From Ignisphaera sp. (lineage in GTDB: Archaea > Thermoproteota > Thermoprotei_A > Sulfolobales > Ignisphaeraceae), in assembly GCA_020833345.1 (NCBI GenBank), contig JAJHQM010000008.1, positions 1 to 37,877 on the forward strand: a stretch of DNA of 37,877 nt. The letters run 5' to 3'. Positions within the stretch are counted from its first letter, which is position 1, and each line of letters starts with the position of its first letter. Made by a program: the position numbers and the translations under genes. Shown one piece after another: positions 1,421 to 34,621 of this stretch. The notes beneath the pieces are model-generated. The model did no database searches. It was not told the origin of the DNA and saw only the letters and a list, made by a program, of their open reading frames with translations.

Positions 1421-1599
1421 AGCTCTCAGCCAGAAACTTTCTAATTAATTCAATTTAAATTTCTTTAGGTAATTGGATATAACATAGCATGCTTACTAGC
1501 ATTAAGGTTTTAACTTGCTCAGCGAATTATAAGAAGGTAATCATATTTTCATTAGAGTGTAATTAGCTTAGGCGAAAGGTTCAAAGAGAATAACTTTAC

Positions 1600-30569: not shown

Positions 30570-31280
30570 ATGCTAGTTAACAAAATGCAGCAGTATAAGA
30601 AAGTGCTAAAGAGATTTATCAGACTTAAGTTTTGGTGGCTTTACGCTAAACCAGTGAATGATACCTTTTTGTATGACATTAATCAAGCTGTGGCTAAGAA
30701 GATTGGAATGAAGCCATTTAAGGTGATCAAGGTCGCTGAGGCTAGCTTTTATAATGCCATGGTCTTTAGTTTTAGCTGTAAAAGCATAACTATTACAAGT
30801 TTTCTAAAGGAGGCTGGCAGGGATGCTATAGAAGGGGTTTTCCTTCACGAGTATGCCCACTGTAAACTTAAACATGGTCAAAAGCTTTTCTGCTTAGCTT
30901 TACTACTTTTAATACTCTCAATACTTCCAGTTACATATTTACTACTTAACAGCACATCAATGATTGAAGCAGTATTTGCATCGATAACCCTTGCCCTGGT
31001 ATACATATTTGTACAACTGATATTACGTCGCAAAGCTAGAAGATTTGAGTATGAGGCAGACTTATTTGCAGCACTGCATGCAACAAATAGCTGCGCTTAC
31101 ATAGACTTGCTATGCTCCTTTCTTCGCCATAAGCCTTTCAAAAATAAAATTAATAAAATTACTGAGATATTTAGCTCTCATCCATCTCCTCACAGTAGAA
31201 TAGAAAACATAGTAAGGCACTTTCCAGAGATGTTAAAATGCATGGAAAATACATGTCGTGGTGGGCCCGGGGGGATTTGA
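30570..31280 (+). CDS. M48 family (HtpX-like) metallopeptidase
   Basis: GVFLHEYAHCKLKHGQ (HExxH), two TM segments, RRKARRFEYEADLFAA third-ligand motif. Confidence 0.87.
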   Translation: MLVNKMQQYKKVLKRFIRLKFWWLYAKPVNDTFLYDINQAVAKKIGMKPFKVIKVAEASFYNAMVFSFSCKSITITSFLKEAGRDAIEGVFLHEYAHCKLKHGQKLFCLALLLLILSILPVTYLLLNSTSMIEAVFASITLALVYIFVQLILRRKARRFEYEADLFAALHATNSCAYIDLLCSFLRHKPFKNKINKITEIFSSHPSPHSRIENIVRHFPEMLKCMENTCRGGPGGI

Positions 31281-31394
31281 ACCCCCGACCTACGGGTCTC
31301 CCCTTCAACGCTCCAGCTTTCTCTCATCCCATGCGGTCAAAAGACCCATAGCCTAGCTGGAGCCCGCCGCTCTACCTAGCTGAGCTACGGGCCC
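31262..31394 (-). tRNA. trnW: tRNA-Trp (anticodon CCA) with 59-nt intron at 37/38; CCA tail encoded at 31261-31259
   Basis: Reverse strand: GGGCCCG TA GCTC AGCTAGGTA GAGC G GCGGG CTCCAG [intron] A CCCGT AGGTC GGGGG TTCAAAT CCCCC CGGGCCC A CCA; all stems pair. Confidence 0.95.
31298..31356 (-). ncRNA. tRNA-Trp intron; candidate box C/D-like guide RNA for tRNA-Trp C34 and C39
   Basis: Intron CTAGGCTATGGGTCTTTTGACCGCATGGGATGAGAGAAAGCTGGAGCGTTGAAGGGGAG. BHB: exon CTCC pairs with intron GGGG, 3-nt bulges AG|C and AG|A. Two antisense elements each precede a TTGA box; GGGATGA is 6/7 to C box RUGAUGA; no upstream C box identified. Confidence 0.65.
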
Positions 31395-31659
31395 TCCAAA
31401 TTTCATCAAGCTATATCTACACTGCAAAGCCTTATATGTTCTTATGCACATTTTAAGCATGGGCGCGGCTTAATGAATGCTTACAATATCAAGAATAAGA
31501 ATTTGTTTGTAATACCTCCTTAAACTATCCTTTTCAGAGTAAACTTCTTTATTTGTGTTGAAGTCAACTTCTTTTCAATTCTTTAGGGTTAAGGGCTTGC
31601 CAAAGAAGTACAGCAACTGATTACAGACGATTATAATACATCTACTGTTGTTAAGACTG

Positions 31660-32403
31660 TTAAGATTCTTTTGCCCAAAGTGATGTCATCTTTGACCTTC
31701 TAATTCTCCTCATTTCTCTTTCTAAATACTTATATACTGTAGAGTGTTGCCTTCCCTCTATGAGCATCAATATTGCATCTTTAGCAGCGTTAGCACTTTC
31801 ATAGTCTCCAATTATGGCGACATAATCGTCATAAATGGATATGTAGGTACCAGTCATTTCCTCTATGTTCCTTCTAGCTTTTCCTTCTTCACCAATGATC
31901 CTACCCTTAACTCTTGTTAAGTGATTTTCGCTAGGAGGGACATACTGCTTCAAATCTATTACTATTAGTACTTGATCTTCATCGAGAAGCCTAAATGCTC
32001 GTTCTGGTGAAAAGCCATAGCCTATTGCTGTAACTATGTCTTTTGCCTTCATCATGTCTACAGCTCTTGTTTGAGGGCCTTGAGGCTCTATAATAACAGT
32101 GCCATTTACTTCATCTACTGTTATTAGAGTTTGGGTTTCTTGCATTAATTGCTTTAGAACCTCTCCTTTCTTACCTATAAGCACGCCCACCCTCTCTAAG
32201 GGGATCTTAATATAGAATTTTGTAACTCCTGGAACTAAACGACTTTGTATTCTTGTATTTATGTTTGTAAGGCTGCCTTGCGTTGTAGAAGAGGTAGAGG
32301 AATTAGATGCAGTGCCTTGTACAGAATTCTTTACATGTTTTTCATTGACCAACTTTGATACACCGCACCAGGTTTTCTTTACGCTTAACCACAATTTAAG
32401 CAT
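31660..32403 (-). CDS. KH-domain RNA-processing protein (Dim2/Pno1/Krr1-like)
   Basis: KFYIKIPLERVGVLIGKKGEVLKQLM and VKGRIIGEEGKARRNIEEMTGTYISIYDDYVAIIG; operon with rio1 and aIF1A. Confidence 0.92.
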   Translation of the reverse strand: MLKLWLSVKKTWCGVSKLVNEKHVKNSVQGTASNSSTSSTTQGSLTNINTRIQSRLVPGVTKFYIKIPLERVGVLIGKKGEVLKQLMQETQTLITVDEVNGTVIIEPQGPQTRAVDMMKAKDIVTAIGYGFSPERAFRLLDEDQVLIVIDLKQYVPPSENHLTRVKGRIIGEEGKARRNIEEMTGTYISIYDDYVAIIGDYESANAAKDAILMLIEGRQHSTVYKYLEREMRRIRRSKMTSLWAKES

Positions 32404-32438
32404 GCTTCTCTTATGGTATACAATTATGGGAAACAGAA

Positions 32439-33278
32439 CTATTCTTCAGACGTTTCAACTAGTGTTTGTAGCGCTTCTTCATTCTTACTTATAATATTTT
32501 GGTATATTCTCTCTACAGACGGGGTTTTCAACTCGAGCTCCTCCCTAAAGAACCTTACAATATTGTTGATATCTCTGTAGAGAAACATGTGTGAATTAGG
32601 GTGTTCAAGCTTTACAGCCTGACTCACATCAATTATGTAGACTCTGCTACTGTGAAACATTACATTGTATTCACTCAAATCCCCATGAACGAGCCCCGCG
32701 TACCAGTACATTCTATAGACGTTTCTCATAATCTCCTTAAAGATTTGCAAAGCATTATCAGCATTCAGAAGCCCCATCGTGACAGCCTCTTTAAGTAGAG
32801 GTGCTCTTACACTATTTTCACCTATGAACTCCATCACTAAGACATTTCTGTGGACGCATACTGGTTTTGGTACAGAAACACCTGCTTCATACATTTTTTT
32901 CAAATTTGAAAACTCCTTTCTCGCCCATACAGACATGAGTTTATGCGTGGGTAAAGAAAGTATCCATTCATACCTTGGGTCTCCCTTTAAATACCTCCAA
33001 ATACCCTTCTTAAACTCTGCTGTAGCCGTTAAATATATTTTCACAGCAACATCTACATTATTCTTACCCTTTGCCAAATACACTCTAGCCTCCTTGCCAG
33101 CAGATATAACGCCATAAAGCTTAGCTATACACCCCCTTCGTTTAAGTTCAAGCAATGCTAACACCGTAGCCCTATCAAAAACTTCTTCAACAGTTTCAAA
33201 AAGATCCTCATCCTTAATCCTAGGCTCTTTCAATCTCCTTTTAAGTTCCCTATCAACACTCTTTTCAATATCTTCCAT
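32439..33278 (-). CDS. rio1: RIO1 family serine/threonine protein kinase
   Basis: GVISAGKEARVYLAKGKNNVDVAVKIYLT, WYAGLVHGDLSEYNVMFH, VYIIDVSQAV. Confidence 0.95.
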   Translation of the reverse strand: MEDIEKSVDRELKRRLKEPRIKDEDLFETVEEVFDRATVLALLELKRRGCIAKLYGVISAGKEARVYLAKGKNNVDVAVKIYLTATAEFKKGIWRYLKGDPRYEWILSLPTHKLMSVWARKEFSNLKKMYEAGVSVPKPVCVHRNVLVMEFIGENSVRAPLLKEAVTMGLLNADNALQIFKEIMRNVYRMYWYAGLVHGDLSEYNVMFHSSRVYIIDVSQAVKLEHPNSHMFLYRDINNIVRFFREELELKTPSVERIYQNIISKNEEALQTLVETSEE

Positions 33279-33382
33279 GTAAATCCCTTAGCAAAGCAGT
33301 AAAAGCCTTATAAGTTAAAACATTAGGATGAGTGTTCGCCTAAACCAGAATTCCATTATATTGTATAATCACGTTACGCATT

Positions 33383-33706
33383 CTAAGGGGCTCTTTCTAT
33401 AAACTCTTTTGTTATCATGTTCATTGATATGAGTTTCTTTACTTCGTCCTTGCTATACTTATACACAATATCACCTTTTGTATTCTGAAATTCCCAAGGT
33501 TCAACAAGCACCACATCACCACTAGCAAACCACACCCTTCTTCGGAACTTTCCAGGTATTCGGCAAATTCTTGAAACACCATCAATGCATCTTACTTTTA
33601 GAAAATCTGCCCCAATGGTCTCATCCACAACACATAAAACCTGGTTCCCAGTAGGCACTACAAGCTCTTTAGAAGTGGAGCTCTCAGTTTTTTTCTCCTT
33701 TGGTAT
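33383..33706 (-). CDS. eif1A: Translation initiation factor aIF1A, probable non-canonical ATA start (conservative GTG start at 33658)
   Basis: VPTGNQVLCVVDETIGADFLKVRCIDGVSRICRIPGKFRRRVWFASGDVVLVEPWEF; upstream in-frame (ATA)PKEKKTESSTSKELV with SD GGTGA 6 nt before ATA. Confidence 0.85.
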   Translation of the reverse strand: MPKEKKTESSTSKELVVPTGNQVLCVVDETIGADFLKVRCIDGVSRICRIPGKFRRRVWFASGDVVLVEPWEFQNTKGDIVYKYSKDEVKKLISMNMITKEFIERAP

Positions 33707-33720
33707 GGATTCTCACCCTC
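33707..33720 (-). promoter_or_regulatory. Shine-Dalgarno for aIF1A upstream of ATA
   Basis: Reverse strand GAGGGTGAGAATCC|ATA; GGTGA core complementary to archaeal 16S 3' end, 6-nt spacer. Confidence 0.55.
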
Positions 33721-33760
33721 TCTTTACATAGCTAATTCACTCAGAACTTAATAAGTCTAC

Positions 33761-34621
33761 TTACCTTTTTCCTATTCTATACTTAGATAAGTTTCGTGAA
33801 AGATCAGCAAAGTGTACCTTACTTATATTACCACTGCCATCTCTTAATACAAGCCAGGTTCCATCAAAAGATTCTACGGTATATGGAATTCCGCTTATAA
33901 TGATATAGTCACCAGCTTTAAAATTCAGTATCCTAATAGAAACGTAAAGTCTGGAAACCCTTTGCCCACTTGAAGTCCTCTTAACATCGCCATGAGATTC
34001 TACAACTTTTACTGCACGCCACTTTCTCTTAGCAGCCTCAACAATACGTTTTGTTAGTGATGCGTCGAGTAACTGTATGTCATAACCATTTTTAACAGGC
34101 TTGACTTCTTTAATCCACTTTTCAAACTCTTTTGCTATGCTATTGACAAAATCTTCTATCTCTCTATCAGCATTTACGTATCGTAATTGTATAACTGCAC
34201 TATGGCTCCCACCGACAATTTTCTTGCAAAGTGGGCAGAGAGAAGCTCTCCAGGAAACCATAACCATAACTGTATGTGAAATTTTTACCTCTTCCAGCTT
34301 TCCAAGAATGTTTATAGCTGCTGGAGAATCCTCGTATGGCGTAAATGTAACATCGATATCCTCTAGTGTAAATTCTTCTGAAGGTTTTAATAACTCTATG
34401 AAGAAATCTTCAATAACATCTTTAAGCTCTTCTAAGCTCTGTACGTAAATCCACTTTCCATGAACTCTTACTCCTCCACATATTCTGCAGTACCCTATCT
34501 CTACAGAACGAGGTCTGGTTACAAGCCCCTTAATCTCTATATAGCACCTTGGGCATAGCCCCTTGATTATGGGTGTTGATTCAGACTCTTCAACACCACA
34601 ATTCACGCAAAACTTCTTCAA
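33761..34621 (-). CDS. NMD3-related protein
   Basis: FCVNCGVEESESTPIIKGLCPRCYIE and YCRICGGVRVHGKW...LCPLCKKIVGGSHSAVIQLR. Confidence 0.9.
   Translation of the reverse strand: MKKFCVNCGVEESESTPIIKGLCPRCYIEIKGLVTRPRSVEIGYCRICGGVRVHGKWIYVQSLEELKDVIEDFFIELLKPSEEFTLEDIDVTFTPYEDSPAAINILGKLEEVKISHTVMVMVSWRASLCPLCKKIVGGSHSAVIQLRYVNADREIEDFVNSIAKEFEKWIKEVKPVKNGYDIQLLDASLTKRIVEAAKRKWRAVKVVESHGDVKRTSSGQRVSRLYVSIRILNFKAGDYIIISGIPYTVESFDGTWLVLRDGSGNISKVHFADLSRNLSKYRIGKR

Follow-up and report, generated by a model that had tools for sequence, protein, structure and literature searches.

A compact tRNA-Trp intron with a single kink-turn as a probable guide for 2'-O-methylation of its own precursor in Ignisphaera and related Thermoproteota

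In Haloferax volcanii, Pyrococcus and other Euryarchaeota, the intron of the tryptophan transfer RNA (tRNA-Trp) is an established guide for 2'-O-methylation of nucleotides 34 and 39 (PMC11408192, PMC7994747, PMC2584109, PMC6313347). The H. volcanii intron, 103 nt long (PMC2584109), guides modification of C34 and U39 (PMC11408192, PMC7994747). Archaeal guide RNAs are described as requiring both C/D and C'/D' motifs (PMC8413462), and the tRNA-Trp guide was earlier stated to be always intronic (PMC2584109). In Sulfolobus acidocaldarius, 2'-O-methylcytidine at position 34 (Cm34) was found in tRNA-Trp by mass spectrometry, and the accessible part of that report links no guide to it (PMC7668247); circular tRNA-Trp introns are known from S. 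acidocaldarius and S. solfataricus (PMC12558985). Here we analyse the tRNA-Trp gene of Ignisphaera sp. on contig JAJHQM010000008.1, a stretch of 37,877 nucleotides (hereafter the window) from a 1.3-Mb genome (contig C30 of G000 in our numbering). Its 59-nt intron probably guides 2'-O-methylation of its own precursor, as a homologue of the euryarchaeal guide with a single kink-turn.

The anticodon of the window tRNA-Trp is CCA. As the first-pass annotation had it, the 59-nt intron carries TTGA boxes at intron positions 17-20 and 49-52; by the Rfam model and the sequence, it occupies the canonical 37/38 site. The intron reads CUAGG-CUAUGGGUCU-U-UUGA-CC-GCAU-GG-GAU-GA-GAGAAAGCUGGAGCG-UUGA-AGGGGAG. 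Guide 1 (CTATGGGTCT, intron 6-15) forms 10 bp with one G-U pair and places G12 opposite C39, while guide 2 (AGCTGGAGC, intron 39-47) forms 9 bp, crosses the 5' junction to reach intron nucleotides 1-2, and places G44 opposite C34. Counted upstream from its UUGA box, the nucleotide facing C39 or C34 is in each case the fifth (the +5 register). For both targets, the intron shows the guide property of canonical box C/D small RNAs (sRNAs), namely at least 9 pairs with the target at the fifth nucleotide upstream of D or D'; it likewise has the canonical tRNA-Trp(CCA) location and the dual 34/39 guide with duplexes spanning the junctions that mark tRNA-Trp intron guides. To gauge chance, the intron was subjected to 100,000 dinucleotide shuffles and duplexes were scored in the +5 register of an NTGA box. 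Duplexes of at least 8 bp at both C34 and C39 were found in 0/100,000 shuffles, and both of at least 7 bp in 4e-5 of them; taken singly, 9 bp at C34 arose in 0.19% and 10 bp at C39 in 0.03%. Both guides proposed at first reading, down to the nucleotides facing the targets, withstood this comparison. Furthermore, the genome carries a fibrillarin gene (E 3.7e-103).

Relatives were searched with the pattern CTCCAG, guide 1, NNGA and GATGA, which matched in 119/216 genomes of the same GTDB order (families f1-f5, f7, f9 and f11). Families f6 and f10 also carry the intron guide outside this strict spacing (L007, L008, L324), which brings it to 10 families of the order in all. It is also present in other orders of the class (L225-L227) and in family f41 of another class of Thermoproteota (L271-L273). 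No family was found for it in Rfam. Of 120 distinct introns, 119 were fully parsed and form the basis of the counts below; intron lengths among relatives range from 36 to 91 nt, mostly 50-67.

Guide 1 makes 10/10 pairs in 96 of the 119 introns and at least eight in all of them, through 23 different guide/junction combinations. Indeed, each of the exon variants CCCGUAG, CCCGGAG, CCCGCAG, CCCAGUG, CCCGGUG, CCCAAAG and CCCGGCG is accompanied by a fitting guide 1. Its last base tracks intron nucleotide -2, being U, A or G opposite A, U or C, and junctions ending UG^ACCC and CG^ACCC are matched by guides ending in A or G. This covariation is very strong across families; within families it is significant at the last letter only (p 0.01), since the rest of the guide is almost invariant there. 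Guide 2 is present in 83/119 introns with 7-9 of 9 pairs, and its 5' letters track intron nucleotides 1, 2 and 3, which are paired in 59, 46 and 46 of 60 family-distinct cases, respectively. For nucleotide 1, the 59/60 paired cases compare with 51 expected within families (p < 5e-5); nucleotides 2-3 are also significant, and the signal vanishes on a one-base slide. Each guide covaries with the exon-intron junction that it faces, and because splicing removes the intron letters of these junctions, the partner of both guides is the unspliced precursor. Lack of conservation of the guides relative to the tRNA had been named in the first-pass annotation as evidence that would speak against self-guiding. 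In the alignment of related introns, both guides instead follow the changes of the junctions, an outcome that favours the guide reading and lends support, at the sequence level, to the proposal that C34 and C39 are self-guided in this lineage. Judged from these alignments, the intron guide pattern is under selection across relatives.

To form a bulge-helix-bulge, an archaeal intron has to base-pair with the anticodon region, and the complementarities could in principle be a by-product of this splicing structure, with no guided methylation. In the window, C32UCC35 is able to pair with GGGG near the intron 3' end, in competition with guide 2, which uses exon bases C32-C35 too. Nevertheless, the bulge-helix-bulge uses different intron nucleotides (GGRG, at the 3' end), the guides stand at constant offsets to the D' GA and to AUGA, tRNA-Trp in many f5 genomes has neither the canonical intron nor the guides, and stem II of the kink-turn described below covaries, which together make a splicing by-product very unlikely.

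Between the two guides, covariation outlines a kink-turn in which the GA of D' is followed by a stem, a GAU bulge, a second GA and the letters of stem II. The pair 3b-3n, next to the G-A tandem, is standard in 94/119 introns where 46 are expected, and takes the forms G-C (31), U-A (20), A-U (19) and C-G (15); the pair 4b-4n is standard in 62/119 (41 expected). Under within-family shuffling, these pairs gave p < 5e-5 and p 2e-4, respectively, and three control registers gave no covariation signal. The intron thus has the D'/C' kink-turn of a canonical box C/D sRNA, with its GA/GA core, GAU bulge and two covarying stems, while the CUGA and RUGAUGA letters are kept only in part: the TTGA letters are local to the window lineage, and across relatives D' conserves GA alone. 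C' corresponds to AUGAGAG (intron 30-36) and is followed by 12 nt up to the TTGA at 49-52, the canonical C'-to-D distance. This is 3 nt later than the GGGATGA that had been taken for the C' box at first. In that earlier register, position 2 is G, C or A and never U, and the NN of D' fits in just 22/119 introns; in the shifted one, both stem II pairs form in 50/119 (3b-3n in the 94/119 given above). Family f7 mostly lacks stem I and, from its sequences, would form a kink-loop rather than a stemmed kink-turn. Separately, the conserved GACC might have been explained by a local hairpin GGUC-NNNN-GACC; this was rejected, since f6 and f7 mostly lack GACC yet keep the guide and the D' GA.

The outer boxes present a different picture. 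A RUGAUGA-like box upstream of guide 1, with one mismatch allowed, was found in 0/119 introns; a bare RUGA tetramer occurs in 3/119, and box C is missing from 116/119. The splice site is often just 2-5 nt from guide 1. The description of a reduced intron without a recognisable first C box therefore holds across the order. The terminal box C/D motif of canonical box C/D sRNAs is absent, as is the combination of both motifs found in tRNA-Trp intron guides, which makes the element a variant of the tRNA-Trp intron guide and not a canonical box C/D RNA. The second D-like box is UUGA in the window and its family, as first noted, but it is weaker than was then implied: in relatives it is mostly NNGA, at the exact offset in 54/83 introns with guide 2 and one base later in 20 more. 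Between this box and the splice site lie anywhere from 3 to 28 nt. In several species (L220, L155, L176, L177), the 3' exon contributes the A of this NNGA, namely A38 (GAG^A), and so the box would exist only before splicing. Locus L220 belongs to the S. acidocaldarius-like genome G055 and carries the compact intron.

A search of 300 genomes from the phylum for a form with box C gave 16 matches, among which those in Ignisphaera, the only ones assigned, are a stand-alone sRNA. Its copy in the window genome (L318) has perfect ATGATGA/CTGA boxes twice over, which indicates that box reduction is not general to the C/D RNAs of these genomes. This stand-alone C/D sRNA, ATGATGA-TACGACGGTCTT-CTGA (L316-L321; G000 C92:33379-33400), is conserved in Ignisphaera-like genomes and in one family f2 genome.

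The degeneracy of box D outside the window family raises the possibility that only guide 1 methylates (at C39), and that guide 2 is mainly a cis stem that closes the kink-turn domain as an alternative fold of the precursor until splicing. Indeed, the predicted minimum-free-energy fold of the pre-tRNA has a 9-bp helix between guide 2 and the 5' junction under the D'/C' hairpin cap, and guide 1 with D'/C' persists after loss of guide 2 in f2 and f7. On the other hand, 54/83 introns retain NNGA at the 12-nt offset, and 74/83 within 1 nt of it, despite the variable distance to the splice site. Moreover, Cm34 is present in S. acidocaldarius tRNA-Trp (PMC7668247), and stand-alone C/D-like RNAs with a C34 guide occur in two intronless genomes. 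Given these observations, we consider a mainly structural guide 2 improbable, though the most serious of the alternatives.

One or other of the two modules has been lost in several lineages. Guide 2 is lacking, with guide 1 and the kink-turn kept, in most of f2 and throughout f7 apart from the Pyrolobus-like L024 and L039. The 36-nt f2 introns L171-L175 represent a minimal natural form, with a shortened guide 1 (7 bp), NNGA, the stem and GATGA, and without guide 2. The opposite arrangement, guide 2 and kink-turn without guide 1, is seen elsewhere in the phylum in family f19 (L258, L260, L266, L268-L270). In f5, some loci have no intron (L106-L108, L124, L329), and others keep, or have gained, a separate intron after nucleotide 30 in the anticodon stem (L109, L110, L113, L114, L117-L123). 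That guide 2 and the intron have been lost in this way indicates that the modification is not essential. Together with the missing box C and the degenerate D and D', such repeated losses are also what would be expected if the intron were a decaying, non-functional relic of a euryarchaeal-type guide. That explanation is scarcely credible, since guide 1 is kept at 8-10 bp across about ten families and the compensatory changes in guide 2 and the kink-turn within families point to ongoing selection.

Two f5 genomes that are intronless at 37/38 (G149 and G165) carry the stand-alone C/D-like RNAs mentioned above (L232 and L233, each at ~1450-1530, minus strand). With their D guide, GGTCTGGAGC, they match the uninterrupted anticodon loop of tRNA-Trp and place C34 opposite the +5 position. 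A third candidate with a C34 guide (L239) lies in G013, which retains the intron. The search of intronless genomes used strict patterns with a reversed-pattern control; it revealed no systematic stand-alone replacement of guide 2, as the strict patterns gave only G149, G165 and G013. Further stand-alone matches appeared at the rate of the reversed-pattern control and look like chance. Since the wider search was blank in other f5 genomes, such compensation is not general, or it escaped the pattern. The candidates in the two intronless genomes speak against the statement that this guide is always intronic (PMC2584109).

Collectively, these data favour an intron that probably guides the methylation of its own precursor. 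L7Ae would bind the D'/C' kink-turn and recruit Nop5 and fibrillarin; guide 1, paired with the unspliced 3' junction, would direct methylation of C39, and guide 2, paired with the unspliced 5' junction, that of C34 through the degenerate NNGA box 12 nt past C'. As intron nucleotides take part in both duplexes, which also overlap the splice-site helix, the intron would be excised only after methylation. Methylation of C39 through D'/C' is the step best supported by sequence, whereas for C34 the best support is chemical and comes from a relative, S. acidocaldarius. Several points weigh against this scheme: D', as read from the alignment, retains only GA; box D is NTGA in only 17/83 introns with guide 2; the pairing of guide 2 with the 5' junction could instead be a structural cis stem; guide 2 is lost in 36/119 introns and the canonical intron in most of f5; and direct evidence for Cm39 in this clade was not found in the literature. 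More tentatively, and with clearly less confidence than in self-guiding as such, we suggest that the element may be an order-wide guide with one kink-turn, in which a single L7Ae site nucleates the ribonucleoprotein for two guides. Its second box D would be reduced to little more than GA and, in some species such as S. acidocaldarius (GAG^A), be completed by the splice junction, so that C34 could be methylated only before splicing.

The features of the locus are collected in Table 1. The tRNA-Trp at 31394..31262 (minus strand) was not called by ARAGORN. Its 3' end is convergent with an open reading frame for an M48-family peptidase (30570-31280, plus strand), which ends within the tRNA gene with a 19-nt overlap (window 31262-31280). 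A plausible TATA box, CATATAAGG (window 31430-31438, minus strand), precedes the tRNA 5' end by about 40 nt, and farther upstream on the same strand lies a gene cluster for a KH-domain protein, RIO1 kinase, aIF1A and NMD3 (window 31660-34621).

Table 1. Elements of the tRNA-Trp gene and its intron, in window coordinates
Feature	Position	Strand	Evidence
pre-tRNA-Trp(CCA) gene	31262..31394	-	Rfam RF00005, 58.4 bits; sequence
pre-tRNA-Trp 5' exon	31357-31394	-	Rfam RF00005; sequence
pre-tRNA-Trp 3' exon	31262-31297	-	Rfam RF00005; sequence
59-nt intron at canonical 37/38 position, holding the guide module	31298..31356	-	sequence; bulge-helix-bulge possible
Guide 1 (CUAUGGGUCU), paired with 3' junction AG^ACCCGUAG; G12 faces C39	31342..31351	-	junction covariation in relatives
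D' box, UUGA in window, NNGA in relatives	31337..31340	-	GA at constant spacing in 111/119 introns
Apical stem-loop CC-GCAU-GG (kink-turn stem I)	31329..31336	-	2-5 bp stem in 107/119 introns; third pair covaries within families
GAU bulge and C' core G-AUGAGAG (L1-L3 = GAU, 1b-2b = GA, 3b-4b = GA)	31321..31328	-	3b-3n and 4b-4n covariation, within-family permutation p <= 0.0002
Guide 2 (AGCUGGAGC), paired with 5' junction GCUCCAG^CU; G44 faces C34	31310..31318	-	guide 2 tracks the letters of intron nt 1-3
D-like box UUGA, 12 nt past C'	31305..31308	-	sequence; NNGA at same offset in 54/83 relatives with guide 2
Bulge-helix-bulge 3' strand GGGG (GGAG in most relatives), pairs with C32-C35	31300..31303	-	sequence; relatives table
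Predicted target C34, anticodon wobble base	31360	-	+5 register from box at intron 49-52
Predicted target C39, anticodon stem	31296	-	+5 register from D'

The tRNA-Trp intron guide described for Euryarchaeota appears to have a homologous form across Thermoproteota, without the terminal box C/D motif that is regarded as crucial in archaeal ribonucleoproteins. We found no description of a tRNA-Trp intron guide without box C in the literature, a search that excluded the original Trp-intron papers and their supplements. The intron guide offers an explanation for the Cm34 of S. acidocaldarius, whose guide is not named in the available part of the report, and in this genetically tractable species the compact intron provides a ready test of the minimum of a box C/D guide. 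In addition, lineages with guide 1 only, guide 2 only or neither are natural knock-outs.

The compact intron is very probably homologous to the euryarchaeal tRNA-Trp guide. Like the intron guides of H. volcanii and Pyrococcus (sR50), it lies at 37/38 of tRNA-Trp, has the same guide order, targets 34 and 39, and forms two duplexes that cross the exon-intron junctions. This arrangement is directly visible in the euryarchaeon L046 (Methanocorpusculum), our positive control, which follows the canonical layout with box C, CTGA boxes and 12-nt spacers and carries both guides. The compact intron differs from the H. volcanii and sR50 guides in lacking box C, and hence the terminal kink-turn, in having D and D' cut to NNGA and C' to RUGA with an apical stem in the D'/C' kink-turn, in being shorter (36-91 nt as against 103 nt), and in the loss of one module in several lineages. 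With stand-alone archaeal box C/D sRNAs it shares the guide of about 10 nt, the +5 rule, the 12-nt C'-to-D spacing and the kink-turn core, whereas the consensus ATGATGA/CTGA boxes, present on both sides in L318 of the same genome, are absent from the intron. Finally, it resembles archaeal C'/D' kink-turns and kink-loops in its tandem G-A pairs, RUGA and expected L7Ae site; here, however, this internal motif is the sole recognisable kink-turn of the molecule.
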